64,000 nt of DNA, from positions 18,036,053 to 18,100,052 of the forward strand of contig OX344750.2 of NCBI GenBank assembly GCA_947034885.2, in the 5' to 3' direction. Positions 2,953-64,000 of the stretch are shown here, piece by piece. The notes beneath the pieces were generated by a model. The model searched no databases, had not been told where the DNA came from, and was given only the letters and a program-made list of their open reading frames with translations. Both the position numbers and the translations under genes were made by a program. Source of the stretch: Thuidium tamariscinum (Eukaryota; Streptophyta; Bryopsida; Hypnales; Thuidiaceae). Each line of letters begins with the position of its first letter. The first letter of the stretch is position 1.

Positions 2953-3017
2953 ATATTACTTTAACGGCTCAATATGATTTTCTTATAAGATGAAGGCACC
3001 CGTAATTGATCATGTAA

Positions 3018-6430: not shown

Positions 6431-6434
6431 ATAT

Positions 6435-14855: not shown

Positions 14856-15210
14856 ATGTGCAAGTAGGGTTTTCAACTATTTTCTCTAGTGGATAGAATT
14901 GGTAATTATTCATTCGTTTGTTTTAGAATTCTTACATAATTTTGTGCAATTTATAGGTGAGATTGTGTGCAATATGTATTGATATTATTTTTACGTAATG
15001 TATGTACATTATCCTATTTTTTTATCAAATGTAATAGTCCTTAAGAAGTTAAAGAGAGACATTTTTTTAATTTGCAATGTGTAGGGTATAAAAAAGTAAC
15101 TCAAATTGTGAGACAATTATAGAAATAATAAAGTTTGTTAAATGAATATAATATTTCAAAACATTTTTTCTTGAAGAAGTGCGTGCCCAAAAAATACACT
15201 CATTTTTTAA

Positions 15211-15977: not shown

Positions 15978-15981
15978 TTAA

Positions 15982-19298: not shown

Positions 19299-19321
19299 AA
19301 ATAAGGTAAAAGAGAGCTTAA

Positions 19322-19678
19322 CCCTTAAACGCCAGTGGTGGAAAGAGAGATCTTCTACAATATTTTGACCTTGCAATGAATGCTTTAGGATTATTTTATA
19401 CCAAAGACTCATGGTCTTTGAATGGATGAATTCCAGAGTACCTTGCATCCATATACCTTAAAGGACAAACTAGTGACCATGGAAAATCATGCATTCTAAA
19501 ACCGTAGGGACCATTGGTATATTAAATTCCAAAATCACTCATTGCAAGTCAAAGCACTATAGAAGACTTTTTCTTTCCACCCCTAAAGTCGAGGATGAAT
19601 AGTTATATTTTTGTCATGTACATGAGATTCTCTTTTATCATCCATCAGACGTCAAATGTCCGTGTCGTCCTATAAGGG
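19322..19678. mobile_element. TTAA-flanked element, CCCTTAAACG subfamily, 357 bp
   Basis: It starts CCCTTAAACGCC after TTAA (19318-19321) and ends CCTATAAGGG before TTAT (19679-19682). Internal segments GGTGGAAA(G)...AGATCTTCTA and AAAGCACTATAGAAGA form an inverted pair and match the element at 52851-53071. The right flank has one mismatch from TTAA, so this copy is older. It lies 23 bp from the CACTA MITE. Confidence 0.65.
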
Positions 19679-19869
19679 TTATAATGTTAACCTATAAGCA
19701 CTCGAGAGGCAAGAATGTAGCTTCTTCAAATGAGGGTTTTGACCATTATAATGTCCTAATCAATGCTTGAAATGATCTTCAATGAATTTTTGAACCTATC
19801 AAACGATCTATTGTATGGGATACATTGTCTGAAGGAATAGGACATATTTTTAGCAAGATTTGCCAAAAA

Positions 19870-22333: not shown

Positions 22334-22337
22334 TTAA

Positions 22338-22870
22338 CCCCTAAAGGACCAACATGCCTTTTTTGGCAATATAGTGATTTTGGGTAGATACCTATGACTA
22401 GAGATTTTCATGTTTTGGAACCAAACTTTAATAGAAGGTGTAGAGAAGGAGTATCTTTAAAGCCCCCAAAATTTCGTGACTTTTGACTACATGGTTGAAA
22501 AGATACCGCATAATATGTTGTTGGTTTTTCAACTCGGGTAGTTCGGGCAAATCACAAAAAATCACTTTTTTTAGAAACCTAAATTTGAAATTGGTTTTTA
22601 TAGATTTATACATATGTGGAAAGCTTTGAATCATTCGATTTGGATTAATGAGTCAAAAGTTATGAAGAATTTTAGTTTGCGGCTAGTTATGAATTCTCTA
22701 CTCTAAAATAAACTTTGAAGTCCCTTATTTTACTCAATTTTCAATATTTTTGAAAAAAAATAAAAACATTCGGTGTAGATTGTTTATTACAACATTTGAA
22801 CCATTGGAATTGGTATTTAAGGTCATTCTATTTCAAACTTGTTTAAAATACTACAAATAATGGCATGTTT
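22338..22870 (+). mobile_element. TTAA element, subfamily B, 5' portion
   Basis: TTAA (22334-22337) is followed by CCCCTAAAGGACCAACATG. The following roughly 500 bp is colinear with 40249-41054 and 62689 onward (AGCTTTGAATCATTC, TAAAATAAACTTTGAAG, GGTGTAGATTGTTTATTACA). The right terminus was not found, so it is either truncated or too diverged to recognise. Confidence 0.6.
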
Positions 22871-40244: not shown

Positions 40245-40248
40245 TTAA

Positions 40249-41054
40249 CCCCTATAGGACCAAGTTGCATTTTTTTGTGAACATAGCAGTTTTAAGTAGC
40301 TTACTACAAATAGAATTTTTATTTTTATTTTCTTGAAATTTTCTCACAACATGCATCCAAGGAGTAGTGTCAAGGTCCAACAATTTTTGTAACTTTGACT
40401 ATATAATTATAAAATTATTGCATAATATGTAATTTTCATTGATCTCTAGGGACAGATAGTTATAGAATCTCTATTCTAAAATAAACTCTAAAGTCTTTAT
40501 TTAATTTAATTTTTCAATATTTTGGAAAACAAATAAAAACACTAGGTGTAGATTGTTTATTACAACATTACAACCATATGGATTGTCATTATTTAATTCC
40601 ATAATTAAATCCTTAACAATTTATTAGTGATTTTTATCATTCCCTACTTTTAATTTACTATTTTTTCCTATATGTTGTACAATTCCAAATAATCTAAAAG
40701 TTTTTAGGGGTGTAGCGAATTTAGGCAATTACCTTGAACTTGGCCTTGAAGAATGGATCAAAGAGTGTCCACCAATTTGAACATCTTTCCACCCAAATGT
40801 GACCTTGTGAAGTGTAATTGCCCTATTTTTTGCAAAGCCAAAAAAAATAATGTCAATTCAAACATTAATATTTTACAATCTATGCAATGAAAATATTCAA
40901 ATTTTTTCAACATCTTTTCAAGTTAACTTACTACAAGAGCCTACAATTATATGTATCCAAAAATCTTTTTATTTTCTAAAATTTGGTAATTGTATTAAAA
41001 ATGGTAGTTTTGGAGTGATTTTGATCAAATAACGTAGTCAAAAATCTATAGGGG
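40249..41054 (+). mobile_element. Complete TTAA element, subfamily B (806 bp)
   Basis: TTAA at 40245-40248 and 41055-41058 bound CCCCTATAGGACC...CTATAGGGG; the first 9 bp are an exact inverse of the last 9. This is the copy of subfamily B with both ends present and no nested insertion, so it serves as the reference for fragments at 6435, 15211, 22338, 59357 and 62689. No transposase is encoded; the only frames (up to 60 codons) lack motifs. Confidence 0.75.
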
Positions 41055-41058
41055 TTAA

Positions 41059-42242
41059 TGCCATATTTAAGAATGTAACTTTTATTTTAATCTTTTTCAT
41101 TGAAAGAAGACAAATCTTAGCTACAAAGCTTTTTTCTAATTTGAACCTTTGTCCAAATTTTCTTTTAATAAAAATAAATATTTAACAAAAATGTAATGGC
41201 TCTCCCTTTGATGTAAATTTTTTTTTTCTTCAAACGGAAGTTAAGTTTCCTAAGATCCACTTCAAGATCATTTATCCCAAATATTATATATAAAGTTCAA
41301 ATTCATTGCTTGGAGATTGAATTGTAGAAGTTGATCATAGCATCTAACTCATGAAGTTACTCAATTTGGACTATATGTCCACTAGAAGAAAAATTGAACC
41401 TGTGGAGGTTATGAGTTTGAAAGTGAATTAAGCATATCAATTCTAGAGAGTCAATGAATAAATACCATATGCAAGGGTAATTTTCTAGTACAAACTTTCA
41501 ATGATGAATGTATTCAGTTTAGATGTCTTCTTAGAGAAAAATTTGTCATCATCTCTACATGTGTCAAATGGGTTGTACAGAATAAAGACTATATGGCATG
41601 TACAAATCTCTATATTTTCTACAACAAATTTGGAACTACACTAAGGTAGTGTGATCTCTAAAAGTGTCTAACATGCTCTAAAAGTGATCACAACATTTTG
41701 ATTTCATCGATGTACCAATGATGTATTGTATGTGAAGGTCAAATTTGGCATAAAGTAAGTCATTTTTGAAAAAAAAGTAACATGTGCCATCTTGTGATTG
41801 TCTCATTGGTCTAAAGTGACGTGGAGCATTCATAATCTGTGATGGAAATTCAAGTTTAGAACTTAGCTATTCAATCAAACCTTCATGTATGGTACACTTT
41901 CAAGATGTGGTTGCTTTTAGTGACCATTGTATTTCAACTTCAAAAGTTTGTAACTAACTCCACAAGATCCAAAAAATATAAAACAAATTAAGTTAGATGC
42001 TAATTCCATTTTTCTTCCTTCTTAGAGTTACTGAAATTGGTTTCAAGGAATTGAGCTCCCTATAAATGCACTTTAATTCTAAAATGGTCGTTGTAAGAGT
42101 AGATTGTCAACCTTAGTCCATTCAAGTCTTTGGTTTTGCATGTGAATGCCTTGAAGCACATAGCTTTTAAAATAGAAGAGGCTCTCGCTGCTTTTTCTAA
42201 GTCCATAGCCCATTGTATAGGAGATTGTTGAAAAAATATGGT
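41059..42242. other. AT-rich intergenic sequence, no gene seen
   Basis: A minus-strand frame at 42060-42269 runs into the adjacent MITE and is not conserved. No gene is supported. Confidence 0.4.
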
Positions 42243-42244
42243 TA

Positions 42245-43257
42245 AGGTGGGTATACCCCAAAAAGACACTTATTGATATAGTGCCTAGTTACTATTATTA
42301 GGTTGTTCAGATACTCATATAGTCTCGTTGGCAAGCAAAAGCACGTTCCAATGCACCAAGAATGCAACATTTGGATACAATATACAAAAGTTATTGAGGG
42401 TCAAAGTCTATTTTTGAAAATGTCATCTATAATATATGTACATGACTAATTTTGGAAATGTACACACATTGTAAATGGTGATTTAACCCCTAAAGCCGTG
42501 AGTTGCGTTTTTTGGCAGCATAAGTTTTTTGGGCAGCTTACTATGAGTGGGGTTTTTATTTTTTTTCTTTGAAATTTTTTCACAAGATGTGCCCAAGGAG
42601 TAGCTTTAAGGCCCAATAATTTTCATAACTTTTGAATTTGTGGTTAAAAAGTTATAGCATGATATGTTGTTTTCTTTACTTAGAGGGCAGAATGAGTAGC
42701 TGAAATTACTTCTTTAAGAATTTTTTTTTCAAAAGTGAAATTTCAAATTGATTCTTTAGGTTTTTGCAGACATGGGAAGCTTTGTTTCATTCTATTTGGA
42801 TTAAGGAGTCAAAGTTATGAGGAATTTTTGTTTGTGGGTGGTATAGAGTCTTTCAAAACCATACCTACCCATAAACTAAAATTCCTCATAACTTTTGACT
42901 CCTTATTCCAAATGGAATGAAACAAAGCTTCCCATGTCTGCAAAAACCTAAAGAATCAATTTGAAATTTCACTTTTGAAAAAAAAGTTTTCTTAGAGAAG
43001 TTTTTTCAGCTGCCCATGTTGCCTTCTGAGTAAAGAAAACAACATATCATGCCATAACTTTTTAACCACAAAGTCAAAAGTTACAAAGATTGTTGGGCCT
43101 TAAAGCTACCCATTGGATACATCTTGTGTAAAAATTTCAAATAAAATAAAATAAAAACTCTACTCGTAGTGAGTTGCCGCAAAAACTTATGTTGCCAAAA
43201 AACGCAGCTTAGGGCTTGAGGGGTTAAGGGCACCTAGACTTTTGGATATACCTACCT
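42245..43257 (+). mobile_element. Mariner/Stowaway-like MITE, copy C, split by a nested element
   Basis: TA at 42243-42244 and 43258-43259. The left part (42245-42486) and right part (43228-43257) together equal a normal ~273-bp copy. Ends are AGGTGGGTATACCCC and GGATATACCTACCT. The split is caused by the foldback element at 42487-43223 plus its duplicated TTAA. Confidence 0.8.
42487..43223. mobile_element. TTAA foldback element, 737 bp, near-perfect palindrome
   Basis: TTAA flanks it (42483-42486 and 43224-43227). The sister MITE at 49537 reads CGCTTTAAGG at the same place, i.e. one TTAA, so the target duplication is directly seen. The two arms, each about 360 bp, are inverse copies meeting near 42850. 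Examples are TGCGTTTTTTGGCA/TGCCAAAAAACGCA and CTTCCCATGTCTGCAAAAAC with its complement. Each arm matches the first part of TTAA subfamily B. A transcript would form a very long hairpin. Confidence 0.85.
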
Positions 43258-43325
43258 TAGAAACTTTGTAGTTTGAAAAGAACAAAAACTAGTGCATTGG
43301 GTTGAAGTAATCTCACCTCCCCTGA

Positions 43326-43716
43326 GGTAGAAGGCTCTTAATGGAGTAGGTTCTAAAATGGTGCCCTATCTTAAATGTATAGTACTTGTACATGTTTCTT
43401 TTTTATAGCTTTCAGCAGTGTACTGACAGTTTACATTTTAGCTAGGGCACCATTTTAGAACCCTATACCCTTTCAACTTCAAAATTTGATAACTAACTCA
43501 AAAATTAGCTAGGGCACCATTTTAAAACCTTATGCCCTTTCAACTTCAAAATTTGATAACTAATTCAAAAAAACTCAGAAAAATATGAAACGACTTGGGT
43601 TAGATGTCAATTCTACTTGTTTTTCAAGAAAAAATTACTGAAAAATATTTCTAGAAGTTTTACCTCCCTGAAATTCTGTTTCAGCCCTTAGATGGTCCAT
43701 TATAGGACCTCTTACC
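43326..43716. mobile_element. Repeat family R, copy 1 (391 bp)
   Basis: It starts GGTAGAAGGCTCTTAATGG and ends CCATTATAGGACCTCTTACC, a partial inverted repeat. It is colinear with 51898-52611. It contains a tandem duplication of about 68 bp (43440-43567) starting AGCTAGGGCACCATTTTA, which copy 2 lacks. Superfamily unknown. Confidence 0.65.
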
Positions 43717-44277
43717 TTAGTTGTATTTTCCAAGGAGTCTCCCTTGCAATCGATATGGGTGGGGGGAGTTTTCTACGCAGCGGCAGAGGTGCTGCCTTTT
43801 TTCACTGCTCATTCAGCTCATTGTCACTGTGTCATTGTCATTGTAAAACACACCGAATGAAACTCTCCCCCCACCCAACCCCATCCCATTTTGATGACAA
43901 GGGCTTTTTCCTGAACCTGAGTGAGTCAATAATTTCACCCAAAACCGACCGGCTGACAACCCAAGAGCACCCAACCACTCCACCGGCAAACTAAAATTCT
44001 CCACTTTGCCCATTTATTACTCCGTATAGGATCCAGCACTTCCCAACTCACCCATGAATGACACGTCACCCGGGATCGACCTACCTACAAGCTGAGTTGG
44101 CAGATCCAGGCCTAGCCTACCACGCCAGGCCTCACCATGCAATTGATTTCTCCTCACTTATCACGGAGTGTTATGAGGGAGAGCGCAATCCTATTTTATT
44201 ATTCAGCACTAGATGGAAAGAACTGCTAAACAGTAGTAACACTAATATTGAAATATACTAAAAGGACTAATGCATGC
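43717..44277. other. Mixed-composition spacer
   Basis: The segment is GC-richer than the AT-rich spacer. Opposing frames at 43692-43994 (+) and 43813-44013 (-) overlap and show no motif. No gene is supported. Confidence 0.3.
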
Positions 44278-44536
44278 AGGACGTTAAATCCTACCATCGA
44301 AGGTGGGGCCCAGCAGGTGGATTTACCCCTTGGGGAAAATGCAGGAATTTTTTAATTTTTGCAAATTCTGAATTCATAGTTGCAATCAGAGACCCCCAAA
44401 TAACTAAGAGAAGCCTAGAACATGTACCTTAAAGATGGCCCAAAGTAGGGTGGTTTTTTTTTTTCACTTTTACCTGGAGAACCTCAAATTTACCCTATTG
44501 GGTCCACTTCCGTCGTTGGTAGGATTTAATGTCTTG
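44278..44536. mobile_element. Inverted-repeat element, ends ACGTTAAATCCTACCA
   Basis: The left end ACGTTAAATCCTACCATCGA and right end TCGTTGGTAGGATTTAATGT form an imperfect inverted repeat about 250 bp apart. No transposase, and the duplication is unclear. Confidence 0.55.
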
Positions 44537-44539
44537 GTA

Positions 44540-44782
44540 CTAGATGATCGGGGTGAACTGCCCCCCTTGCTCAGCCACTCCAAGTAATTTCAGGGGTGGA
44601 AGTAAAATAAAAAAAGCCCCCTATTTTGTGCTTAACTAATTTACCTTGTCCACTCCTCCTCGCTGATTCGGGACCTCCGATTGCAAACATGAAATCAGAA
44701 TTTTCAAAAAAAATTGTTATCAAAAAATAAAAAAATTCCAGCGTTTTCCCAAGTGGCCGGTCAGTTCACCCCGGCCTACTAG
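44540..44782. mobile_element. Inverted-repeat element, ends CGGGGTGAACTG
   Basis: It is bounded by CTAGATGATCGGGGTGAACTG-like and CAGTTCACCCCGGCCTACTAG-like inverted ends, directly abutting the previous element. About 243 bp, no coding content. Confidence 0.5.
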
Positions 44783-44785
44783 ACT

Positions 44786-45737
44786 ACGTCCAAGTTACGT
44801 CCTCTGGTGAGACCCTGTTCTCTTATGAATGAACCCTGGCAGCCCCTGCCACCGGTAGTGTCCTCAGTGGAGACCATATTAATGAGCCCAGCTGCTCGCA
44901 GATCGACACAGTCCCTCCCTCGGCAGCAGCCATTTGAATGCTCCGCCTCATCGCAGCTGAGGTGGTAAGGAAACCATGGATCGGACCAGCCTTTTTACCG
45001 ATTCCGCGAGCTCTCCAGTTCCAGCTGATCAGAGCTTGTGACGAGCCCCGTCATTCCAGTCAGTCTCGCCCCGGCCCGAAGTTTGGAACTGACTGCAGCT
45101 TGTGCTACTGATCACTCACGTATGATACTCTCGCAGTTGAGAGCGAGGTCGGAAAAGAAAGGAGCCTTCGGCTCTGTAGTGTTCGAGGGTTTAGGTCGAT
45201 CTCGAGCTCTTGGTTCCGTGTGGAGGAGTAGGAGGATAGATCTGAGTTCGTGCATGTGTTTGTGGACTAGCGGAGCTGAGGACATGACAGTTGCTACTTG
45301 GGAGCCCGTAGCAACATGACACGGATCAGAGGCACTTGAGCGAGCCAGCGAGCGAGTGAGTGAGTGGGGGACACTCAGCTCGCGAGCTGCCCAGCTTAGT
45401 TTGTATTCGTCAGTAGCAGAATGGTTGGAGGGATAGGTGCAAGCGGAGGTGAGGGCGTGTGAGTTCCTCAGCTAAGGTGGGCCGGAGCTGGCTGGCTAAG
45501 GCGTCGTCTTTGAGGCGTTTTGTGGAGCTAGCATTTGGGGTTTAGGTGAACTTGGTCGGAAGACTGGCGAGTTTCGCACATGTATGGGCACGCGCATTGG
45601 CGCTGCGAGTACGTGGAGTGGACGGCTTGGACTGATGAGGATATGCGTGCACTGATCTCCCGACTCTAGCTAGCTAAGCGAGCTTTTAGTGTCAGCTGGG
45701 TCGTTGGTTTAATCTCCTTGGCAGCGACGAGGCGACC
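44786..45737 (+). promoter_or_regulatory. GC-rich promoter / 5' UTR region of the P450 gene
   Basis: The GC-rich stretch immediately precedes the P450 start at 45738. It includes a short GAGC/GAGT microsatellite (about 45339-45365) and repeated GCTCGCGAGC-like motifs. A 93-codon frame (45038-45319) ends before the gene and has no recognised motif; if transcribed it would be an upstream ORF. The transcription start is not determinable. Confidence 0.4.
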
Positions 45738-48531
45738 ATGGCGGAATGCAGCGCGGAGAATTTCACGCAGGCGGCGTTCCATGGGCAGTCGCGAGGAGCC
45801 GCGACGCTGGACGTGCTGCCTTGGGATTCTTCCCTGACGGCGCAAGTGTTGGTGGCGCTGGTGGTTTCTTTCCTGGCGTGGCATGTGCTGAAGTATGGCC
45901 GCGTGAAGGGCCCCATCGTTTGGCCCATCTTCGGGACCATGCCTCAGTTTCTGTGGAACCTTCCGCGCATGCACGACTGGACGACGGACATGCTGGTGAA
46001 GCACAACGGCACTTACACTTCCATTGCGCCCAAGTGCACCTGCTTGACGGCCGTGGCCACCTGCAGGTCAGTATGAGTGGACGCTGGGCAGCTGTACTGC
46101 TGCAATTCAATTCTAGAATTTGGTTTGCTGTCTGGACAGGGAATGTAATTAAATCTGGTTTGAATTTTCGATCTTTTTGTGACTGATTTTCAGACTTCTC
46201 AATCCCCATCTATTCCCACCTCCTTTTCCTCGAGAATTTCAGCCCCTCGTGTAGTTAGGAGCATTTGACCATTTTGGCATGGCGCGTTTTACACTAGATC
46301 AGTGATTGCGCGCCTACCGAGGTCTCTGAACAGGATATTTTAGTCAATTTCTGGTGCAATAGGCAGTTGATCGTTTTCAGTTCAGTCTCGTTCAGGTCAT
46401 TATTGAGTAGTTATGACTCCTGGGACGATTTATAGTGCGAATTAATTGTGGACGTGGATAAGTACGCTTCATTTGATTGCCGCTTTTGGGTTCAATTTGT
46501 GACCAGAGGGATATTAATTAAATGCGGTGGAACAGGACAATCGCGGTTGACTATCTAAGAACCTGCAGCCGCCGGAGTTGGATTTTTTCGTTAACAGTCA
46601 AAATCAGGGCACTCTTAAGTTTCAAATTAGGTTTCCGAATGAGAGGAGCCGTGAGGTATTTGCATGTATCTTGAATCGTGACTATTATCTGGAGTTAAAA
46701 TTTAGTTGTCAAGTCCTCACACAGCAATGTTGGTGATTCAGGGACACTGCATGTTGTTTCATGAAGCAGAGCTACTGAACAACGCTTGAGATAATGAAAC
46801 AAAATTAGTAGATAGTTTTAGAAGCTGAATGTCTAAACTGCAATTCAGCAGCCTCGCAGTTGAAATTGGCAGGAGCTAGTGACTCCTGTTGTTATCCCAA
46901 TACCTAGGACTCGCGCACCGCTAATCTCATTGAATTAGGGATTCAAAAGCGTCCAAGGGAGTCGCCGAAGTCCTTATGCATGTTTGGGGATTAATTGGAA
47001 TCGACGTGCAGGCCAGAGAACTTGGAGTATGTCTTGAAGACGAATTTCGTGAACTATCCGAAGGGGAGGCACTTCACGTACCCGTCGCATGACCTGCTGG
47101 GCCAAGGGATTTTCAACACGGATCACGACTTATGGAGGATGCAGCGCAAAACGGCAAGCCTGGAATTCAGCACTCGCACGCTGCGGGATCTCATGGTGAG
47201 GTCCAACAGGAACTCGGTGCAGGAGCGGCTTTTGCCAGTCCTTCATGAATTCGCCAAATCCAGGTAGATCATGAAAATCCATTACCTTCCTTCAACGAAT
47301 CAATTTGGGGTTTCACTCTCTCTGACGAAATTTGCTTATCATGCAGTCGTACCTGATGACTCGCTACATGCATTGATATCTTACTAGCAATGTGGTTGGT
47401 CCATGCCTGCAAATCTCGAGTAGAGCTCCGATCGACTTCCAAGATCTGTTTTTGCGCTACACGTTCGACAACATTTGCATGATCGGCTTCAGCGTGGACC
47501 CGGGATGCCTGGCGCCGGGACTGCCCGCCGTGCCGTTCGCGCAGGCCTTCGACCTGGCCACGGAGGGCACGCTCACGCGCATGGTGGTGCCCGAGATCTT
47601 CTGGCGCGCGCAGCGGGCCATGGGCTGGGGCATGGAAGGCCGCCTGGCGCAGGCCATCGGCGTCATCGACCGCTTCGCCGCGAACGTCATCACGGAGCGT
47701 CGCAAGGAGCTCGCGCAGCTGAAGATTCAGCACGCCAAGGCCACCGACTTCCCGGGCGACCTGCTGTCGCGCTTCATGCAGGGCGCGGATCACACGGGCC
47801 AGCCGTACACGGACAAGTTTCTGCGCGACGTGACCACCAACTTCATCCTGGCGGGACGCGACACCACGGCCATCGCGCTGTCGTGGTTCTTCTTCCTGAT
47901 CACGCAGCACCCCGCCGTGGAGGCGCGCATCCTGCGCGAGATCGAGGCCACTTTGTCGCTGCGCGAGGTCGCTGGTGGCGTCGGGCAGGAGCAGCCGTCT
48001 GCGTCGTCGCTGAGCTTCGAGGAGCTGAAGCAGCTGGACTACCTGCACGCGGCGCTGTCGGAGTCGATGCGTCTGTACCCATCGGTGCCCATCGACAACA
48101 AGGACGTGACGGCGGACGACGTGCTTCCCGACGGCACAGTGGTGCGCAAGGGCGCGCGGCTCATGTATTCCATCTACTCGATGGGCCGCATGGAGAGCAT
48201 CTGGGGCAAGGACTGCCTGCAGTACCGTCCCGAGCGCTGGCTGCGCAACGGCGTCTTCACCCCCGAGTCCCCGTTCAAGTACGCGGTGTTCAACGCCGGT
48301 CCGCGCTTGTGCCTGGGCAAGGAGCTGGCGTATCTGCAGATGAAGTCCGTCGCCAGCGCCGTGCTGCGGCACTTCCACGTGAAGCTTGTTCCCGGCCACC
48401 CGGTCGAATACAAGCTGTCGCTCACTCTGTTCATGAAGCACGGGCTGCGAGTCACCCTGCACCCGCGACACGCACAAACGCAGCAAACCTTGACGCAAAC
48501 GCAACAACCCCCGCAGGTGGCCGAATCCTAA
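45738..48531 (+). CDS. Cytochrome P450, CYP86-type (fatty-acid hydroxylase-like), 3 exons, 574 aa
   Basis: Haem-thiolate monooxygenase anchored in the ER; CYP86 relatives omega-hydroxylate fatty acids for cutin, suberin and spore-wall polymers. Exons: 45738-46066, 47012-47263, 47388-48531, in phase. Seen in the protein: N-terminal membrane anchor (about residues 33-52, LTAQVLVALVVSFLAW), then GPIVWPIFGTMP. NLEYVLKTNFVNYPKG and DLLGQGIFN are typical of CYP86. The oxygen-binding I-helix is AGRDTT (349-354), the K-helix ESMR (419-422), and YRPERW lies at 473-478. The haem loop is FNAGPRLCLG (495-504) with Cys502. Flowering-plant CYP86A genes usually have few or no introns; here two interrupt the first third. 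Exon 3 is strikingly GC-rich. The third-exon acceptor could instead lie at 47427 (in phase, 13 residues shorter). Subfamily uncertain. Confidence 0.92.
46067..47011 (+). other. First intron of the P450 gene (945 bp)
   Basis: GT donor after ACCTGCAG and acceptor ACGTGCAG. It interrupts the codon between TC and PENLEY, just before the conserved NLE-xx-LKT segment. No element insertion was recognised within it. Confidence 0.75.
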
Positions 48532-49424
48532 TTGCAGCTGAAAAAGCCTCAATTCCCTCAGTCGAAGGCAACCCTGATCGTGCGTTAATATTCAATTATT
48601 TCGTTTGGAGAATGCGTACTTGAATTGGTTTGGTACGTTACCAAATATATATATGGCAGAAGATGAGTCGATTAGATCGAAACCAAGTGTGAATTCACGA
48701 ACTACTGAAGTGCAGCCAATTCAAGCAGGCTGCAGGGTGGATCAGTTCCGAGCTAGTGCTTCAATTCTTACACAATAACTCACGAAGGCTTCAAGTGTAA
48801 TTTTAAGGACACCTTAGTCACGTACTTTCCGAAGGAAGCAGTGGTAAAGTCCGGTCGGGAGAGCTAGTAGTGTACGAAATCAATTCAGTTCAGCTAGTAT
48901 GTGAGTGTATTTCCATTACCTAGATCGAGATTACTTCATTAATTTTTACAGGGAGGAGCGTAACTGTTCGTGGGAGCAGGTACGTACGATCGAGTCGAGG
49001 CAGTGATCGAGCGAGCCATGCAAGTAAGCCCGCCAATGCATGCAAGCAAGCAAGCAATTAAGCCAGCCTGAAATGGGCCGGAATAACAAGGCGCGTGGCC
49101 TCTTTAATAATGAGGGCTTCGCTGCCTGCCTGTCTGCCCATTTAAACAGACGTGGGCTGGACAGTAGCGCAGTAGCAGCAGCTAGCAGCTAGCAATCAGT
49201 GCTTGCATGCCATTAACTCCTTCGTCCTTGACTTGGGGGCACACCTCATGATATTGATTAGAGAATTTATTCTTCCACGCTGATATAATAAACACGTCTG
49301 TCTGGCTGTAGAGTACTTGGGATTGCTACCAGTTACGTTGCGGATTTGAATCGATTAACTTAGTACGTTAGATCAAGAGGGCGTCCAACTTGTGAGGGAC
49401 TGAATTCAGGGTATGATGGACTGG
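48532..49424. other. 3' flank of the P450 gene
   Basis: The segment contains the 3' UTR and a spacer of intermediate GC content. Simple-sequence patches include GCAAGCAAGCAAGCAA (about 49042) and CAGCAGCTAGCAGCTAGCA (about 49175). No further gene was recognised. Confidence 0.4.
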
Positions 49425-50005
49425 GACCAACGGTGGAAACACCCAAAACCTTTAAAAAAGAAAAAAAAGAAAAAAGAAGATTTTTTGGATGTCATATGTA
49501 ATTTCTACAATTTTTCAAAGCCTTAGATGTTCAATAAGGTAGGTACACCCAAAAGTGCCAGTTTTTCATACTGTGCCTAGTTCTTGTTATTATGTTGTTC
49601 AGATTCTTTTACAGTCTTGTTGGTGAGTGAAAGCATGTTCCAATGCACCAAAGAATAGTGGATTTGGATACCGTATGCAAAAGTTATTAACAATCAAAGT
49701 GTGTTTTTGAAAGTGCCATCTACAGTCTGGGTACATGACTGATTTTGAAAATGTATGCACGTCGTACAAGGCGCTTTAAGGTCAGGTGCCATTTTGGGTG
49801 TACCTACCTTAGGTGCCCCAAAATCTAAACCCCGCCTAAACCAGCGGTGAGCCAATCAGATTTTGGTATGTATCCTTAGTATGTGTCAATAAATTAGAGT
49901 CAAGCATTTGGCAAACACATTAATTGTAATCTAGGTATGGTTTTGGATGAGTGTAGGGTACACTGTAAGGGGCAAGTATATTGGGTGTTTTTCCTTTAAA
50001 CATGG
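49425..50005 (+). repeat. Dispersed repeat, copy 2, interrupted by MITE D
   Basis: 49425-49536 and 49812-50005 together are colinear with 1985-2400. The MITE at 49537-49809 sits at the TA that is present once in copy 1. Confidence 0.7.
49537..49809 (+). mobile_element. Mariner/Stowaway-like MITE, copy D, with readable empty site
   Basis: TA at 49535-49536 and 49810-49811. Ends are AGGTAGGTACACCCAAAAG and the inverse GGGTGTACCTACCT. Copy 1 of the host repeat (near 2200) has a single TA here, proving a TA target duplication and hence a Tc1/mariner-type mechanism. Length 273 bp. Confidence 0.88.
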
Positions 50006-50374
50006 ATCTAATTGAGGGTACTTGCATTGTGATCAATGCGAGCTCAGGGTTTGATCCACTTAATCATAGGGTTGAGCAAAGGAGAAGATTGATGCTTTAT
50101 ATGAATGTAATAAAATGAGCTAGTTGAGTGTGTCTCCATCTTTTGATAACATATATAAGGTGGAAGTACCTATTTTGAAGAACCCCCCTTTAAAGTCTTC
50201 ATACGTTGACTTATTGTAGACAACACTTGAATGTGTTGTTTATTGAAAAAGATTCTTTGTTTGTATCTTCTCACCCAATCATCTCTTCCTATACTATTTA
50301 GGGAGTAGTGTAAAAGCTAACCAAAATAGGTGAATCTATAAAATTGGAATGGGTCACAATGAAAAATTTACACA
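50006..50374. other. AT-rich spacer, no gene seen
   Basis: No coding or element signal was found. Confidence 0.4.
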
Positions 50375-50584
50375 TATATGGTCAATTTCGTTAAAATGGA
50401 AATATTCCAATAAAATGGCATGACATTCCATTAAAATGGCACATTTTCTTCCTCTACCTTTAGGCCTCTATCAAAATGGTACACGGAATATGATAAAATG
50501 GCACTTGAAATTTGTCAAAGTGGCACATGAAATATGTCAAAATGACACTCGGAATACCACCATTTTAACAAAATCGACCATATA
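50375..50584. mobile_element. MITE with internal AAAATGGCAC tandem motif (about 210 bp)
   Basis: The ends ATGGTCAATTTCGTTAAAATGG-like and CCATTTTAACAAAATCGACCAT-like are inverted, within a TATA context. Inside, AAAATGGCAC / AAAGTGGCACATG(G)AAT units of about 20-25 bp recur roughly seven times in one orientation. Confidence 0.55.
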
Positions 50585-50639
50585 TATATAAAATAAAACA
50601 TTCATTTTTTTGAGGAATATTTTTTTGACATTGTTATTC

Positions 50640-50950
50640 ATCCTTATGTTTGCACACACTAAGCTAAATTTTCACAATGAATTTTCCACATCTACTATAG
50701 TAAACAATGTATGAGGTGCATTCTTTATATGTATCAGTGTACGATTGTGCATAGTTATAGCTTGATAAGGTAGCCAACCCATTCCTGATCAACTCCCCTC
50801 CTTTCCATTTCCTATCTATAGGCCACTTCCTTTCCGTAAAGTTGTTGTACATCTCCCAGAGCAATTGTGGCACATTAGGATTGGTTGTAACGCTCTCATA
50901 AATGCAATCAGCCTATGGTGAGAAATAGTAAGGTCCATATTAACTATGTG
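50640..50950 (-). repeat. Dispersed repeat, inverted copy of 25880-26165
   Basis: The reverse complement shares long blocks with 25880-26165. The frame 50873-50664 (minus) partly mirrors a frame in the other copy but is not preserved, so it is not treated as a gene. Confidence 0.6.
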
Positions 50951-51559
50951 TAATTACTTAAGTGATTAGAAATAGGTCGGCTATCTTAGATGAACTCAAT
51001 CAATTAATTAATGGCAAGTGACAAAATTGGAAATTTTCTTAAATCTAGATTTTTTGGAGTATGGATGACCATTATTGGATGGAAGCCTAGAAAGTAATAT
51101 TCCCCATTTGTCCCACTAAATGCTTCCCAAATTCTTCCTGCAACGACTGTAAATCAGTCTAATTACAAAGCTTTTAATGGGACAAAGAGTATATGTCTAG
51201 GGCAATCAATTAACTGTATGATGGAAGTGATCCATTTGGATTGGAAGTCAATCCAAGATGACCCTAAAAAACCAAATGAAGGCGGAAAGGTACCCAAACT
51301 GAATGGAGAGGTTGCTGATTTGATACTTGGCTGTAATAGGTGGTTTACTTGACGTGAAAGCAGCCTTTCTTCCTGATGAAAACCCTTCTAATGTGTTCTT
51401 CGACACACTTGTGTCAAAAAACATTTGGACTGAAAGTTTTTGGAGAGACCTAGAAGTAGACTTCTTGTATTGTATTGTATTGTATGTGTGCCCTTTAATA
51501 ATGAATTTTCCAGTTTTTTCCTAATTTGTTGGGATTTTTTTTTAAATTTTAAGAAAAAA
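50951..51559. other. Spacer, no gene seen
   Basis: A 65-codon frame at 51327-51524 contains GGLLDVKAAFL but no recognisable family; it may be chance or a short relic. Confidence 0.3.
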
Positions 51560-51832
51560 AGGTGGGTACACCTAAAAGCACCACTTATTCTTATTGTGCC
51601 TAGTTCATGTTATCATGATGTTCAAATTTTTAAATAGTCTTGTTGGCAAGTAAAAGCTTGTTCCAACGCACTAAAGAACGCAGGATTTGGATACCGTATG
51701 CAAAATTTATTAACAGTCAAAGTCTGTTTTTGAAAGTGCTATCTATAGTCTGGGTACATGCCTGATTTTGGAAATGTATGCACATTGGAGATGGTGCTTT
51801 TAGGTCAAGTGCCATTTGAGGTGTACCTACCT
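51560..51832 (+). mobile_element. Mariner/Stowaway-like MITE, copy E
   Basis: Ends are AGGTGGGTACACC and GGTGTACCTACCT. TA is intact on the right (51833-51834); the left flank is an A-run. It is colinear with copies C and D. It lies 65 bp before repeat R copy 2. Confidence 0.75.
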
Positions 51833-51897
51833 TAAATGAAACCCCCATTTGTTGGTTGAATTTGTTGCCAAGGGGTGAGTGGATACATGTACTGTAA

Positions 51898-52611
51898 GGT
51901 AGAAGACTCTTAAATGGAGTGGGTTCTAAAATGATGCCCTATCTTAAATGTATAGTACTTGTACATGTTGCTTTTTCATAGCCTTCAGCAGTGTACTCAT
52001 AGTGTACATTTTAGCTAGGGCACCATTCTAGAGCCCTATGCCCTTTCAACTTCAAAATTCGATAACTAAGGGAGAAACACCCGTTTCCATCCCTATACCT
52101 ATTCTTGGACCTTAGAGTACCACTAAATTTGTCCATAAGCATTCATTAAAGCGTCCGACAAATGTTTAATTCTAATTTGCTGACGTAGTTGTAAGACACA
52201 TGTATAGTTTTCATTCACTGACAACTGATTTCAGTAGGTGTTTAGTTAAAGGTACACCTATAGGACAGTTCCAATGGTCTAGGGAGCCAACACTTTGAAA
52301 ATTTGTAGAAATTACACACTAATTCCAAAAAATTTGATTTTTTTTTTAATATTCATGATTTTCACTTGCTAATACTAGAAAAATATCAGTTTTAGAAAAC
52401 GCTGCCTCCAACTATGCTGAATTCCTTATTTGGACAGTTTTGGGTGTTTCCACTGTAATTCAAATAAGCTCAGAAAAATATGAAACAACTTGGGTTAGAT
52501 GTCAATTCTACTTGTCTGCCAAGGAAAATTTGCTGAAAAATATTTCTAGAGGTTTTACCTCCCTGAAATTCTGTTTCGGCCCTTAGCTGGTCCATTATAG
52601 GACCTCTTACC
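51898..52611. mobile_element. Repeat family R, copy 2, carrying a nested Harbinger-like element
   Basis: Starts GGTAGAAGACTCTTAAATGG and ends CCATTATAGGACCTCTTACC. Without the 52070-52455 insertion and its TAA duplication it is about 325 bp, equal to copy 1 minus its internal duplication. Confidence 0.65.
52070..52455. mobile_element. PIF/Harbinger-like MITE, 386 bp, TSD TAA
   Basis: TAA at 52067-52069 and 52456-52458. Copy 1 of the host repeat (about 43550) reads GATAACTAATTCAAAA with one TAA, so the 3-bp duplication is directly seen. Ends are GGGAGAAACACCC and GGGTGTTTCCACTG, a short imperfect inverted repeat. A TAA/TTA target fits PIF/Harbinger; no transposase is present. A second, partial copy lies at 26430-26625. 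Confidence 0.7.
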
Positions 52612-52850
52612 TTCCTGAAGAAATATTGTGGTTTTCGATGCAGGAGTGAAATTAATCAAAGGATTTGGGGAGTTAGTGCTGACAGAAGTCATATGCATGC
52701 AGACACGTTGTCAACTTGTCATACAGAGTTTGGCTGTGATTGGTACTGAAACCAAGAAGGATTGAATTCTCTGAGTGGGGAGAACGAGTGATATTGGTGG
52801 CTTTTAATAGTTTTGTCTAGTTCTGGAGGGCTTTCTATTTTTATTATTAA

Positions 52851-53071
52851 CCCTTAAACGACGCCCAAGCCATTTTTTGGTCAATGAACTTCAGGGAATC
52901 TTTTTATGTAGGACAGAATTGCAATCATTCATCCTCGGAATTAGGGGTGGAAAAGGAAGATCTTCTATTGTGCTTTGACTTCCAACGTGTGTTTTTAGAT
53001 TTTTTGGAACCAATGATTCCCAGGGTATCAAAATTCCTCAATTCCATGGCCACCGGCTCGTCGTTTAGGGG
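52851..53071. mobile_element. TTAA-flanked element, CCCTTAAACGACG subfamily, 221 bp
   Basis: TTAA at 52847-52850 and 53072-53075. Ends are CCCTTAAACGACG and CGTCGTTTAGGGG. Its interior is related to 19322-19678. It is followed after one base by the TTAA of the next element. Confidence 0.8.
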
Positions 53072-53080
53072 TTAAGTTAA

Positions 53081-54004
53081 CCCCTAAAGGACCAAGAGTC
53101 CCCTTGGGGGACTTTAAGAATTCGGGTAGGTACTTGTGACTTCAATTTTTAATGAATTTTCTTGAAATTTACACATAATATAGAAAAACTGATTAGCTCT
53201 GTGGGAATATTATTTTTTTTCAATTGGTGACCGGGAGCAAAAGTTATGCCATCTTGAACATAATTTTCATGTCGCCGGGTAGAAAAAAAAATCTACAAAA
53301 ACTTCAGAATTAAAAAATTAATTTTTTTTCCTTATAGATTTTATTTTTGTCTACAAGTGAAGCTTTGATTCATTCCATTTGGATTACTAATGTGAAAGTT
53401 ATGAACAATCTTGTTTTTCGGGCAATCTAAGCATCTTCTTGAAAAAATAACTTATAGGATTCATTTGTGAATGCAATTTTCACAATTTTTCAAAAAAAAT
53501 TGTTGGGAAAGGTTGATTTTGTTTGCTAGAACAATCTCACCATTGGGATTATTGTGTTTCAATTCCATCTATGAGATATTTGCAATTTAGTTTTTCTTTC
53601 AATCTTGGACCTACATCTACTTGACAATTTTTTAAAGAATGAAAAAAAAGTCTTTATTTTGTGAATTTTTTTTCCTAAGCTCTTAGCTCAAATACTCAAT
53701 AGAAAAAAAAATTTAATTCAAGTTCTGTAGTACAAAGAAATTACATAAATGGAGGACAAAGTCATTTAAAGTTGCAAACTAGAGTTTAAGAAAACTTTGT
53801 TTTCCAACTTTGAATGCTCATATCTTCCTATCTATACGGTCAAACTTCATGAAATTTTCACCACATGATCTTAGTTAAGTAAAGTACAAGATCCTATGGT
53901 TAGATTCTAAAAATTTAGTTTTTTTTGTTTTTCATGGATGAATGGAGCAGAAATGGCAGTTTTGAGTGGTTTTGGGTTGAAAAATGGCCGTGGTCCTTTA
54001 GGGG
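53081..54004 (+). mobile_element. TTAA-flanked element, long subfamily, 924 bp
   Basis: TTAA at 53077-53080 and 54005-54008. Ends are CCCCTAAAGGACCAAG and GTGGTCCTTTAGGGG, inverted over at least 12 bp. It is the best-preserved copy of a family with degraded members at 3018-3928, about 57930-58721 and 62043-62640. No transposase frame is present, so it is non-autonomous. Confidence 0.8.
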
Positions 54005-54008
54005 TTAA

Positions 54009-57929: not shown

Positions 57930-58721
57930 AGCCATTTTTTTGTCAAAACCACTTAAAACTACCAATTCTGTTGTGTTCATCTATCAAGCCAAAAATAAAC
58001 TTTTTTTAAAGTCTAACCATAGAATCTTGTACTTAACTTCTTTAAGGTCATGTGATAAAGATTTCATGAAATTTGACTTTATAGATTGGTAGATATAAGC
58101 AATCAAAGTTATTTTTTCAAGATGTTAAATTGCTCAAAAAATTATATTGTCTCTAACTTTCACATAACTAGTCCAACTAGAATGAATCAAACCCTCTTAT
58201 ATAGACAAAAATATTTTAATTTAGGAAAAAAAATAATAGTAATTTTGTCTTTTTGCGAAAAAAGATTGTTGCTTGCCAAGTTTGATTTTAGGCTTTTTGT
58301 GGTATAACTTTTGCTCCTAAGCACCAATTGAAATAAAAGTTATATTCCCACAAAGCCTATCATTTTTTTCTATCCTATGAGAAAGTTAAAAAAATTTTAA
58401 CCAAAAATTTGAGGTTATAGGAACCCAACGACACTAGTATGTGAGCATAGAAGTGTGAGCCTATGAGCTGTGAGCCTAAGTATAAGTAAGCATCCTACAC
58501 TCATTGAAGGTGTTTAGAACATAAACACTTATAATATAGGTGTTTAGAACATAAATACACTATAACCATTGAGGTGTCTATGATATAGACACCTATACGA
58601 TAGGTGTACAGAGTTCTAGGCTCATAGGCTCAAACTTTCTATGATCACATACTAGCAACCGTGTATAGGAACTTGCTCGAAATCCATTTTGTTCCCTCAG
58701 GGAACTTTAATTCTTTAGGAA
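57930..58721 (-). mobile_element. Degraded long TTAA element, carrying a nested MITE
   Basis: It is colinear with 3018-3928 and, inverted, with 53081-54004 (ACCATAGAATCTTGTACTT, GGTCATGTGATAAAG, TTTTGTTCCCTCAGGGAAC). The right end CTTTAGGAATTAA corresponds to CTTTAGGGGTTAA, with TTAA at 58722-58725. It is split by the element at 58425-58663. Confidence 0.55.
58425..58663. mobile_element. Mutator-like MITE (GGTTGCTAGTATGTGA family), copy 3, 9-bp TSD
   Basis: The 9-bp sequence TATAGGAAC flanks it exactly (58416-58424 and 58664-58672). Subterminal inverted repeats are CTAGTATGTGA(G/T)C. The sister host copy at about 3868 has TCTATGGAACC uninterrupted, consistent with an insertion here. The 9-bp duplication suggests Mutator-like transposition. 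Related to 2735-2952 and 38649-38867. Confidence 0.75.
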
Positions 58722-59352: not shown

Positions 59353-59356
59353 TTAA

Positions 59357-59830
59357 CCCCTAAAGCACTAAACAACATTTTAGGCAAGAGAAAAAATTTG
59401 GGCAACTCAATGAGAACAAAATTTTCATTATTTTTCTTTGAAATTTTCAAACATGTGGTTAGGAGTAGCTGCAATCCTCATAATTTTTAAATTCATGGTA
59501 AAAAAAATTAGTACATGATTTGTAATTTCTTTTGGAGCCTAAGGAGATCACAAACAATTATTTTTCTAAGAAATAAAAATTTGAAATTAGTTATTAAGAT
59601 TTATATATAGATGAAAAGCTTTGAATCATTCTATTTTGGTTAATAAAATGAAAGTTATGTGGAATTTTAGTATGCATGCAGTCACAAAATCTCTACCCTA
59701 AAATAAATTTTGAAGCCCTCTATTCAATTCAATTTTCAATATTATTGGGAAAAAAAAAGTTAGAGGATGTAGATTATTTATTACAACATCATAGCCATTG
59801 AAATTGGCATTTTAAGAAACTCCATACCTA
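59357..59830 (+). mobile_element. TTAA element, subfamily B, 5' portion
   Basis: TTAA (59353-59356) then CCCCTAAAGCACTAAAC. It is colinear with 22338 and 62689 for about 470 bp (GAAAAGCTTTGAATCATTCT, CCCTAAAATAAATTTTGAAG). The right end was not recognised. Confidence 0.6.
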
Positions 59831-62042
59831 AATTCTTTACAATTGAGTGTCTTTAATTATTCTCTAATCTCTTCTTCCACAATAAAAAAAATCCATATTG
59901 TAGGTGAAAAGCCCTAATTCTTTAAAATGAATTTTAGGTGACATCTAGTGCAACAATTTCATGTTTTTAAGTTAAGAAAAACATCTAGTGTAACATCAAT
60001 TTTGACATAAAAACATAGGATTGTTGCATTGGATGTCTCATAAAATCTATTTACAAAAATTGGGGCTCATCACCTAAAACATAGATTTCTTGTTCTTTCC
60101 AAATATTTACTATTTTTTTAAAGTATGAATATGAAATTTTTTATTGAAATTTTTTAATATGCATTCTTAAATTATCTTTAACTAAGAATTGACTCAAATT
60201 CTAGGTTTAAAGTGGCCCTAAGTGCCATCATAACTTTTAAATCTTTGAGAGGAATTGATTTGACTATGGCCAAATCATGCACCAAGATAGCACCAATGTT
60301 AGTGTAGAGATATAGAAACAAAATGAGTCTCATTTTAGAAAAAGATAATAGTGAATAAAACCTAGACTAACTATGTAGACCTAGCAATGTAGCTTAGGCA
60401 TAGTATAATTGCAAGATACCTAGGAGTGCTTTACATCTATACGCTAAGCCAATTCCTCTTGAGGTGGATTATACAAACTTTCAACCCATTTTAGATTGAA
60501 TGTGGCATGGAATGGCACTATATGGCATTTACTACCACTTTTTAATACATTTTCATCCTCAATTACTCATTTGAATAAGATTATAACAATGGATAATTCT
60601 CTTATATTTAAAGACCTTTAGGACAAGAAATTGGGACAACTCGATAAAACTAGCACTAAGACTTTTATCTAATTTCAAGGCCACTTTACACTTAGACACT
60701 AAGCCAATTTTCCTTAAGGTTGATTGTACAAAATCAAGTAGATTTGGTTTCAATTGTTGAAAAAGTAATATTTCATTAAAAAAAGTTTAATTGAATTTTT
60801 ACATTGGTTCCAAACCAAGAATTAATCTTCCATTTTTAGTGCACCAAATTTTTCGAGCTTAGGCCATGTCATATTATGTCTAATTTGAATTCAAAAATTC
60901 ATTATATCAAATTGTCTTGTCTTCTAGTTAGTAGGGGTCAAGGGGTCAAGAGTGATATCAACCTTTTGTCTAATCACAAGTCATGATTTTGGGTTTGTGA
61001 TACAATAAATTGACTTAGTCTCTAGATGAAAAGTGGTCCTACTTTGTATTATCTTAAATTGTTTTGTCCAAATTTTGGAAGGATCCTTGTTTTTGAATCT
61101 AATATTAACAAACTACAAAAAATATTATGTTTCTCATGGAAGAGTGTGTTGTCGTTGTTGTAATGCTTTAGAGGTTTAATTTTTGGATTGCAACATAGGA
61201 ATATTTCAAAGAAACTTCCAAGAAATTGGTATTTGAATAGTATATGCAAGTTTTAAGAGCTCCAAGTTCAATTGCAAGAATCTCAAATCAATACCCTCAC
61301 TTCAATGTCCTAGTGTTGAAAATTGTACAACAAATAATTATATATTCTTTATGTTCATGGAGAGACAAATAGATTTATCTATCTTTGTTGTGCAAAACAA
61401 AGTAGACAAAAACAAATCTACGGAACAATAAATTAGTAGCATCAAAAAAATTTGAACTATTTTTAGAATTAATTTAAAAATTCTATTTGTTTCAATTAAG
61501 TCATTTCTTCTAAAGAGTTGTTCCCACTTTGCTATAGCTAGAAAGGCCAAATTCACTTTAAAAATGCCCCAAAATTTGCATGAACTTCATTTCACACTAA
61601 GCCAAGCTATAACATTCATGTACATATTAGGAGGTAGTTTTTCCAAGAAAGGTTTTTTTCGCTGAGGGTTAAGTAATTACAAGTTAAGGAAACCCCAACT
61701 TAGATTGCAAGTAACTATTAAGAATTCAAGTGTTCTAACAATCCTCAACATGTTAACATCCACTTGAATAAGGGTCCTTTCCTCATAGAAAGAGTCAAAA
61801 TGCATATGAAGGTCTTAATTACTCATGCAACACTCTTTTCAGAGACATACCACATAGGTTTAGTACTTGCCAACTTACACAAGTAGGAATGCATTTTTTC
61901 TTACTACTCCTTTGCAACTCTACCCCCAAATGAGAATACTCTTTAAGGTGCATTTTAAAATATAATATAATTATAGTATTTTTTTTTTCAAACTAAGAAT
62001 TCAATTTAAAATTTAACTTAATTTTTTTTAATTTGTCACTTC
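59831..62042. other. AT-rich intergenic sequence, no gene seen
   Basis: A pair of short repeats CATCTAGTG(C/T)AACA lies at about 59943 and 59981. No exon or element ends were recognised. Confidence 0.4.
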
Positions 62043-62640
62043 TTAGAGTCCCATTGTTCCCTTGGAGGACAAATGAAAGTTCAAATATGCTCCCATGATC
62101 TCATCTTTGGTGAAACTTTATGAATTTTTTTGTTGTAATAATATATTGGAGGAATGTATTTTTTAGTCGAATTGGTGATTTAAAGTCATGCCATCCCAAG
62201 GACAAATTTCAACTTGTTGGGCAAGAAAAAGAATTCACAAAAGTTTCAGATAAAACACTTATTTTTTTTTCATTGACTATTTTATTTTTGTTTTTGTATG
62301 GAATTCTTTGGTTTATTCTATTTGAACAAGTAATGAGAAAGTTATAGAGAATCTTGTTTTACAGGCAATCAAAGCATTTTCTTGAAAAATTAACATAATG
62401 AAATTGTTTTTGAATTCAATTTTTACATTTTTTCCCAATTTTTTTTCTAGAAGGTTCACTTTGATTGTTAGAACAATTTCACCATTATATTATTATATTT
62501 TATTTCCATCTTATAGCCGTGAATGATTAAATTTCTTCCTGTATCTCTTATCAAATTCTACTTAATAATCTTTTATATAATAAAAATCAAATGATCCTAG
62601 TTGGATATTTTCTTCTTAGAGTCTCTTCTCAATTCTTCAT
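62043..62640 (+). repeat. Fragment of the long TTAA element
   Basis: It is colinear with 53085-53650 (TTAGAGTCCCATTGTTCCCTTGG, AAAGTTATAGAGAATCTTGTTTT, AGAACAATTTCACCATT in shorter blocks). The terminal CCCCTAAAG is lost. Confidence 0.5.
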
Positions 62641-62688
62641 GATAAAAAAAATTAATTCTTGAGATGAAATGCAAAAAACTTGAGTTAA

Positions 62689-64000
62689 CCCCTAAAGCCT
62701 TGAATTGTGTTTTTTGGCAACATAGCAATTTCAAGCAACTCACTACAAATAAAGTTTGTTTTTGTTTTTCTTTAAAATTTTCACACAAATTTTTTCCAAA
62801 CATAAGCTTCAAGGTCTAATAATTTTCATAACATTTGACTCATGGTTCAAAATTTATTGCATGATATGTCATTTTCAATGCTTGGCAGGTAGCTTGAGCA
62901 ACAAAAAAAAAATTCTTTAAAAATTACTTTTAAGAAAATAAAAAATTTGAAATTGGTTCTTGAGATTCATATCTATATGGGGGTGATTGCAAGAAACACT
63001 TGTCCTATTTTGTGTCACACTACGTGTGCTGATCTGTTTTTTGGCCATAACTTTTTTGTTTTGGCTCCGATTGACTCAAGATTTTTAAGGAAGGTACTCA
63101 TAACTATCATAAGCCTTCCCTAATTTTTTTCATAATTTTCAAAAATAATTTACTATCCAAAAATAGACCCCAATTGGATGTCACACTTGGCAGTTTAGGG
63201 ATTTTTAGTACTATGGAGTACCTTTTTTTAATGATTTCAAGATGAAATTTGGATGAGATGGTCTTCTAATAGACTTCTAGCTTTCTAGGGAAGGATTTTA
63301 AAAAAAAGTTAATTTTGTGAGGTGTGCAGGTCTACAAAGTGAGCTCCCTTCTGCTTGTATTTTGAAACATATAAAATATTATTTTGGTGGTTTTTTTGTG
63401 AATGACCATCTACATAAAGTTGTTGCAAATGGCCACTTTTTATTTTTTATATATATATATTTTTACTATTTTTACCTAATTAAAACATAAAGGTATGTAT
63501 TTTTTGGAGGTTTGGCACTTTTCAAGTTCTCCTACTTAGAGAATTTTCCTATCCATTTCCTTCGTTGAAAACCTTCATCTTTTAGGTATATACACTATTC
63601 ATATTTTTCAAATTTTTTAAAAATTAATTTTCTAATTTTAAAGTACTCCTGAAAAAATCAGCCAAATGCAACAAAATCGGCAGGTGTTTCTTGCAATCAC
63701 CCATGGAAAGCTTTGAATCTTTCCATTTCAATTAATGAGATGAAAGTTATGGGAGTTTTAGTTTGTGGTAGTTTGTGGATAGTTATAAGATCTCTACTTT
63801 GCAAAAAAAACTTTGAAATTTTTTTTAATTCAATTTTTAATATTTTTAAAATAAATAAATAAAAAGGTGTAGATTATTTATTACAACATTCCAACGGCTA
63901 GGATTGGCATTTTTCAATTCCATGAATAAATTGAAAGGGATTTAGTATTTTTGATCATTTTCTACTTCATCTAACTTACCAATTTTTTCTATATATTGTA
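62689..64000 (+). mobile_element. TTAA element, subfamily B, interrupted by a nested element and cut by the window end
   Basis: TTAA (62685-62688) then CCCCTAAAGCCTTGAATTG. 62689-62980 and 63707-64000 together are colinear with 40249 onward. The host resumes at AAAGCTTTGAATC after the insertion, exactly where the other copies continue. Confidence 0.7.
62981..63702. mobile_element. Nested element with GGGTGATTGCAAGAAACAC ends, 722 bp
   Basis: The left end GGGTGATTGCAAGAAACAC and right end GTGTTTCTTGCAATCACCC are exact inverses over 19 bp. ATGG is found on both sides (62977-62980 and 63703-63706), and other copies of the host element have a single such site, so this is a 4-bp or overlapping shorter duplication. 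The interior is non-coding and related to the degraded copy at 14147-14855. The superfamily is unassigned. Confidence 0.75.

Follow-up and report, generated by a model that had tools for sequence, protein, structure and literature searches.

The stretch of Thuidium tamariscinum DNA considered here, 64,000 nucleotides of contig OX344750.2 (positions 18,036,053 to 18,100,052 of the forward strand; hereafter, the window), carries a set of short elements bounded by TTAA, which a first-pass annotation had assigned to a non-autonomous, piggyBac-like group of transposons. Four of these elements are complete, and single ends occur at 19318, 22334, 59353, and 62685 (Table 1); after TTAA, the ends in the window read CCCCTAAAG, CCCCTATAG, CCCCTCAAG, CCCCTAAAC, or CCCTTAAAC, or the reverse. 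Family A (914-932 bp) and family B (745-955 bp) share CCCCTAAAGG ends, also cited as CCCCTAAAGGACC / TTAACCCCTAAAGGACC ends, and 7,588 bases of the window (12%) match TTAA elements collected from the surrounding 264 kb. The first-pass annotation had placed ends of the form CCC(C)TAAAG or CCCTTAAACG next to TTAA, and they are present at 22334, 40245/41058, 42483/43227, 52847/53075, 53077/54008, 59353, and 62685; the TTAA that it had seen at 15211/15977 is kept on both sides (15207-15210 and 15978-15981), though the CCC ends of this copy are degraded. The observation of TTAA-CCC ends in the window is confirmed.

Table 1. Elements of the window (window coordinates) and of the transposase loci L037 and L039-L041 (coordinates within each locus)
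Feature	Position	Strand	Length and remarks
Decayed family-A copy	3015..3930	.	GTAA and TGAA where TTAA expected
Family-B fragment, single end	6280..6875	-	Flank TGAA
Decayed family-B copy	15207..15981	.	TTAA on both sides; CCC ends degraded
TTAA end CCCTTAAACGCC	19318..19700	+	3' coordinate arbitrary; 19456-19600 related to the 229-bp element
Family-B copy	22334..22812	+	Left end intact; right end not found
Complete non-autonomous TTAA element, family B	40245..41058	.	814 bp including both TTAA
Complete TTAA element, family B fold-back	42483..43227	.	745 bp; dispersed-repeat landing site with empty related copies
Empty related site (TTAA) of the 42483-43227 insertion	49776..49779	.	
Complete TTAA element	52847..53075	.	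229 bp; ends CCCTTAAACGAC / CCCCTAAACGAC
Complete TTAA element, family A	53077..54008	.	932 bp; both ends CCCCTAAAGGACCA
Family-A internal pieces, no ends	57931..58409	.	
Family-B copy, truncated	59353..59866	+	Left end intact
Family-A internal piece	62182..62637	.	
Family-B copy	62685..64000	+	Intact left end 62685-62967; piece 63702-64000 reaches window edge
Autonomous element L037	2146-7241		5,096 bp
Autonomous element L039	1817-7432		5,616 bp
Autonomous element L040	721-6115		5,395 bp
Autonomous element L041	2073-7166		5,094 bp
Conserved upstream ORF	L037:5750-6568	-	
Conserved upstream ORF	L039:5916-6713	-	
Conserved upstream ORF	L040:1447-2094	+	
Conserved upstream ORF	L041:6237-6746	-	

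Regarding the target, CCCCTAAAG is preceded by TTAA in 14 of its 18 occurrences in 264 kb of contiguous sequence, where TTAA accounts for 0.8% of positions, so that the TTAA-CCC ends are not a product of chance; the remaining four flanks read TTGC, TCCA, TTCA, and TCAA, and T thus stands at position -4 in 18 of 18. Over the same 264 kb, TTAA bounds eight inverted-repeat pairs starting with CYY, and none of the 13 other tetramers bounds more than two (0-2 each), a pair being defined by the same tetramer on both sides and no fewer than 12 matches among the 14 inner bases; pairs with any start are not specific for TTAA (31 for TTAA, 49 for AATT). Across the 363 Mb and 19 contigs of the genome, there are 5,028 occurrences of CCCCTAAAGGACCA, with one of its reversed control, and 4,488 of TTAACCCCTAAAGGACCA, with none of its control; therefore, 89% of the exact CCCCTAAAGGACCA ends lie directly after TTAA. 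The shorter variant TTAACCCTAAAG was found 547 times, versus 140 for its reversed control. From the fixed outer bases, the target is TTAA: the flank counts (14/18 local and 4,488/5,028 genome-wide) ruled out a TA-only target, against which the first-pass annotation had already held the conserved outer T and A, and the genome-wide flanks, which would have spoken against its proposal had they not been TTAA, are TTAA at 89% of the exact ends. Family A is a large family of miniature inverted-repeat transposable elements (MITEs) of even size; among the first 100 TTAACCCCTAAAGGACCA ends listed, all on contig C1, 15 plus/minus neighbors of family-A type span 915-934 bp and one spans 1,171 bp, and the size classes claimed earlier were right. 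Contig C1 also holds two plus/minus pairs of family-A ends of 6,856 and 7,227 bp, which are candidates for long family-A elements. The window elements show a TTAA target and CCC-starting inverted ends, as expected of piggyBac-type MITEs.

As for the family-B element at 42483-43227, it is a nearly complete 745-nucleotide hairpin in which one family-B end is present twice in inverted orientation, with a folding energy of -511 kcal/mol, whereas 20 shuffled sequences average -163; this hairpin and the large TTAA MITE load of the genome would be a likely source of small RNAs. Its joined flanks match 12 uninterrupted related copies, whose sites read TTAA in four cases, TTTA in five, TTCA and TAAA in one each, and a gap in the last, a pattern that fits an insertion that duplicated a TTAA-like site. 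The landing site is a dispersed repeat, with copies ~70-85% alike at 42243-42484, 49533-49811, 51556-51834, 24349-24623, and 37846-38109 of the window. The empty sites proposed earlier as a check were found for this insertion and in no usable form for the other 15 tested: 13 of the 16 gave no row passing the empty-site filter, an 846-bp insertion gave a single weak row reading TTGG, and the flanks of 53077-54008 matched their own neighborhood only.

The transposase domain typical of piggyBac, DDE_Tnp_1_7 (PF13843), has 116 scored matches among 658 candidates in the genome, the best with an E-value of 5.7e-80, and five of these 116 loci were read with wide flanks (L037-L041). In four of the five, inverted TTAA-CCC ends enclose the transposase gene and define elements of 5.1-5.6 kb; in L037, L039, L040, and L041 these end repeats also rank first among the inverted 16-mers surrounding the gene once the TTAA requirement is lifted, in a search that left out left 16-mers with fewer than four kinds of base. 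L038 was dropped as a complete element since its left end is doubtful, and its open reading frame (ORF) opens upstream of that end. All five loci have uninterrupted transposase ORFs of 808-1180 amino acids, each matching PF13843 (E 7.6e-76 to 1.1e-80), with three invariant aspartates, D662, D767, and D883 in P0001 numbering, in the contexts (V/C)DE, D(N/R)FF, and GVD; we take these to be the catalytic residues. The C-terminal C980, C983, C991, C994, C999, C1003, and H1008 (P0001), a set of the kind expected of the cysteine-rich zinc-binding domain of piggyBac, are invariant in the five as well, and the alignment of this region to the solved piggyBac tails is not significant. Two sequences of the PDB match the transposase P0002, piggyBat (6.2e-33) and Trichoplusia ni (T. 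ni) piggyBac (3.2e-24), and P0002 could be aligned with both across the three aspartates; the four transposases other than P0001 are 28-44% identical to it. The piggyBac interpretation of the first-pass annotation is supported by these data. It had anticipated a longer element with the same ends and a piggyBac domain, of which one half stands, namely that TTAA-CCC elements encode DDE_Tnp_1_7, and, as to the other, no autonomous element with CCCCTAAAGGACC ends is among the five loci read; an autonomous partner of a different kind was not encountered, the element-borne transposase being piggyBac, with no search of the genome made for mariner-type transposases.

At three places, C8:23933884-23942167, C8:19067897-19081635, and C9:19502615-19519018, two oppositely oriented piggyBac genes with equal or nearly equal scores lie within 7-15 kb of each other; these are possible inverted duplications. 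When IMG/VR was scanned for viral carriers with the transposase alignment, 40 stretches matched by pattern, none of which was confirmed.

The four complete autonomous elements share a further ORF of 170-273 amino acids on the transposase strand. In L039 this ORF is located ~350 bp ahead of the transposase ORF; in L037, L040, and L041 the two overlap at the transposase start. The encoded proteins (P0006-P0009) have in common a region around an (I/A)LGW motif; P0007 and P0009 are 45% identical (E 4e-48), P0007/P0008 and P0006/P0007 match at 6e-7 each, and P0006/P0008 at 9e-6 over 32 residues, all E-values being of single comparisons and covering four of the six pairs. None of these ORFs matched Pfam at E up to 1; each may represent a second protein or an N-terminal exon of the transposase.

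Regarding the age of these elements, a search with 1,500 bp of the L037 transposase gene recovered 11 copies at 100% identity (ten at 2706 bits, one at 2701). Of the 88 candidates, 40 were scored, and the 29 scored matches beyond these 11 fall at 67-71% identity, with no intermediates. The right end TTAACCCCTAAACGCCGGCAGCGCC was located 13 times in the genome, and in 11 cases its distance to the domain match of one of the 11 copies is exactly 2,612 bp. The copies are spread over contigs C1 (2), C2 (4), C5 (2), C8 (1), and C9 (2), of 24.9-54.2 Mb. When 110 bp at both ends of the ten other copies were compared with L037, TTAA was found on both sides in 11 of 11, the inner 50 bases were identical at each end, and the flanks differed among all 11 on each side. 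The L037 element is one young copy sitting at a MITE end; the MITE is a family-B copy of ~930 bp (L037:1220-2149), whose TTAA directly adjoins the element. This genome contains a genuine piggyBac, apparently mobile in the recent past: a recent burst of cut-and-paste insertion would be the simplest reading of this pattern. Because of the gap between 100% and 71% identity, there is room for a horizontal arrival of the youngest lineage.

The link between small and large elements is closest for a non-autonomous element of 1,327 bp located on the upstream side of the window, which shares the outer 20 of 20 bases with L037 at one end and is 84% identical to it over 45 bases at the other. Families A and B and the 229-bp element resemble the autonomous elements that were read in their target and general end motif alone. 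With tblastn, the five transposases had no match within the window and matched one place in the 264 kb, upstream: an apparently frameshifted piggyBac-like gene stretch ~40 kb from the window (C2:17995684-17997061), enclosed by a TTAA pair of 6.3 kb with 10 of 12 bases matching between its ends. Another upstream TTAA pair, of 5,368 bp (C2:17845841-17851208), was rejected as an autonomous element, since a family-A copy forms its right part and it showed no similarity to a transposase.

Taken together, the window is best explained as holding non-autonomous piggyBac families (MITEs) moved in trans by autonomous elements of ~5.1-5.6 kb located elsewhere in the genome, with a probability of roughly 0.93. 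In this mechanism, the piggyBac transposases encoded by the autonomous elements would act in trans on the MITEs of the window; on the basis of established piggyBac biochemistry, they would bind the CCC-starting ends, cut via hairpin intermediates, insert at TTAA, and excise without a footprint, and short sequences with suitable ends would be mobilized too, at least one lineage having probably moved very recently. Several points weigh against this explanation. No autonomous copy with CCCCTAAAGGACC ends is among the five loci read, and the left end of L038 is unconvincing, matching at 9 of 15 bases, with other inverted repeats scoring higher. The full-length copies of families A and B read here are only ~70-80% identical, and because of this both families are old. 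Clear empty sites exist for one of the 16 insertions tested, and only four of its 12 sites read TTAA; moreover, the palindromic TTAA cannot tell a 4-bp from a 2-bp duplication. Finally, PF13843 had no match in 14 control genomes, a control that may be weak.

The lack of CCCCTAAAGGACC ends on the autonomous elements read would also suit a scenario in which families A and B were moved by another TTAA-targeting transposase, Kolobok- or Sola3-like, with piggyBac as an unrelated neighbor. Sola3 has a TTAA target. Kolobok likewise makes TTAA duplications, according to the portion available of a paper on this group (PMC9587614). That same portion describes Kolobok ends as beginning with RR, whereas those found here begin with CCC like the piggyBac elements of this genome, and the end motifs given in the available part of a piggyBac mining paper are CCCTT, CCCTC, and CCCAT (PMC10813416); Kolobok was ruled out on its 5'-RR ends and on the piggyBac nature of the transposase found, and the scenario as a whole is quite unlikely. 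The 11 identical copies might instead reflect contamination or an assembly artifact, as their 100% identity without intermediates down to 71% could suggest; against this stand their eleven distinct flanks per side on five large contigs, the diverged and decayed relatives throughout those contigs, and the one copy seated at the TTAA that borders a local MITE, which make native insertion far preferable and an artifact very unlikely. Stowaway-like MITEs of the Tc1/mariner type are common in plants, and a TA target with a fixed adjoining A/T could in principle mimic TTAA; the exact TTAA before 4,488 of 5,028 ends, the invariant T at -4, and the piggyBac nature of the element-borne transposase found render this origin extremely unlikely. 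Beyond the explanation by piggyBac in trans, a broader statement, that a native piggyBac system is still mobile in a land plant, with coexisting diverged autonomous lineages, one of them newly at no fewer than 11 sites, a conserved upstream domain outside the known Pfam families, and thousands of MITEs dependent on the superfamily, stands at even odds.

Other features of the window include stretches of NUP160 and of a P450, the latter having as its best PDB match the plant LUTEIN DEFICIENT 5, followed closely by P450s of animals and bacteria. A remnant of a hAT transposase dimerization domain lies at 1048-1404 (PF05699, E 1.1e-9), and a 67-bp unit is repeated head-to-tail at 43438-43571 (94% identical), with a further single copy at 52011-52077. 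Rfam had no match in the window at the gathering score; elsewhere in the genome (G000), C2:41669235-41671463 holds a MIR160-like hairpin cluster of ~2.2 kb, three of its hairpins being above the RF00247 gathering score. The MIR160 hairpins and the P450 suggest a land-plant host, perhaps a bryophyte. A search for the DELLA domain, as a plant marker, gave no match, and none in the controls either, so it is uninformative.

Transposons of the piggyBac kind are best known from animals. The open literature searched yielded no description of an intact piggyBac from a land plant, most subscription papers and repeat databases lying outside this search, so that an earlier description may exist. In a 2022 review, six terminal inverted repeat (TIR) superfamilies are counted for land plants, and the word piggyBac is absent from its available text (PMC9033089), as from that of PMC7466625. 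Full novelty is countered by a fern genome table with 1,230 PiggyBac-labeled pieces covering 122,417 bases (available part of PMC6890710), by a review that, in the section accessible, names PiggyBac among plant superfamilies with reference to a general classification (PMC10794571), and by the summary of an animal-genome paper, which has piggyBac isolated from insects, fungi, and plants (PMC10813416). The mechanism and the superfamily are already known, and the lineage is unexpected. An intact, recently multiplied plant piggyBac would extend the list of six TIR superfamilies as it appears in the available text of PMC9033089. It would also make a case for asking whether plant piggyBac was inherited from algae or gained horizontally, and it would offer a plant-adapted relative of the enzyme used as a footprint-free gene-transfer tool.

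In comparison with known systems, the elements resemble the Stowaway and Tc1/mariner MITEs of plants in being small, AT-rich, inverted-repeat elements of high copy number, and differ from them in the target, TTAA here and TA there. With Kolobok they share TTAA target duplications, and they differ in having CCC instead of RR ends and transposases of the piggyBac type (available portion of PMC9587614). The accessible part of a study of coral piggyBac-type MITEs likewise discusses short non-autonomous elements with piggyBac and TTAA (PMC2872659), while here there are thousands of ends in a plant genome and one copy is a near-complete 745-nucleotide hairpin. The closest relatives are found in the piggyBac superfamily itself, represented by T. 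ni piggyBac (PDB 6x67/6x68) and piggyBat (PDB 9c0f), which have the DDE_Tnp_1_7 domain with the three aspartates in matching places, a cysteine-rich C-terminal region, flanking TTAA on both sides, and CCC-starting ends; unlike these, whose chains have 594 and 578 residues, the elements described here have ORFs of 808-1180 amino acids, are 5.1-5.6 kb long, carry a conserved upstream ORF or exon, and reside in a plant host.

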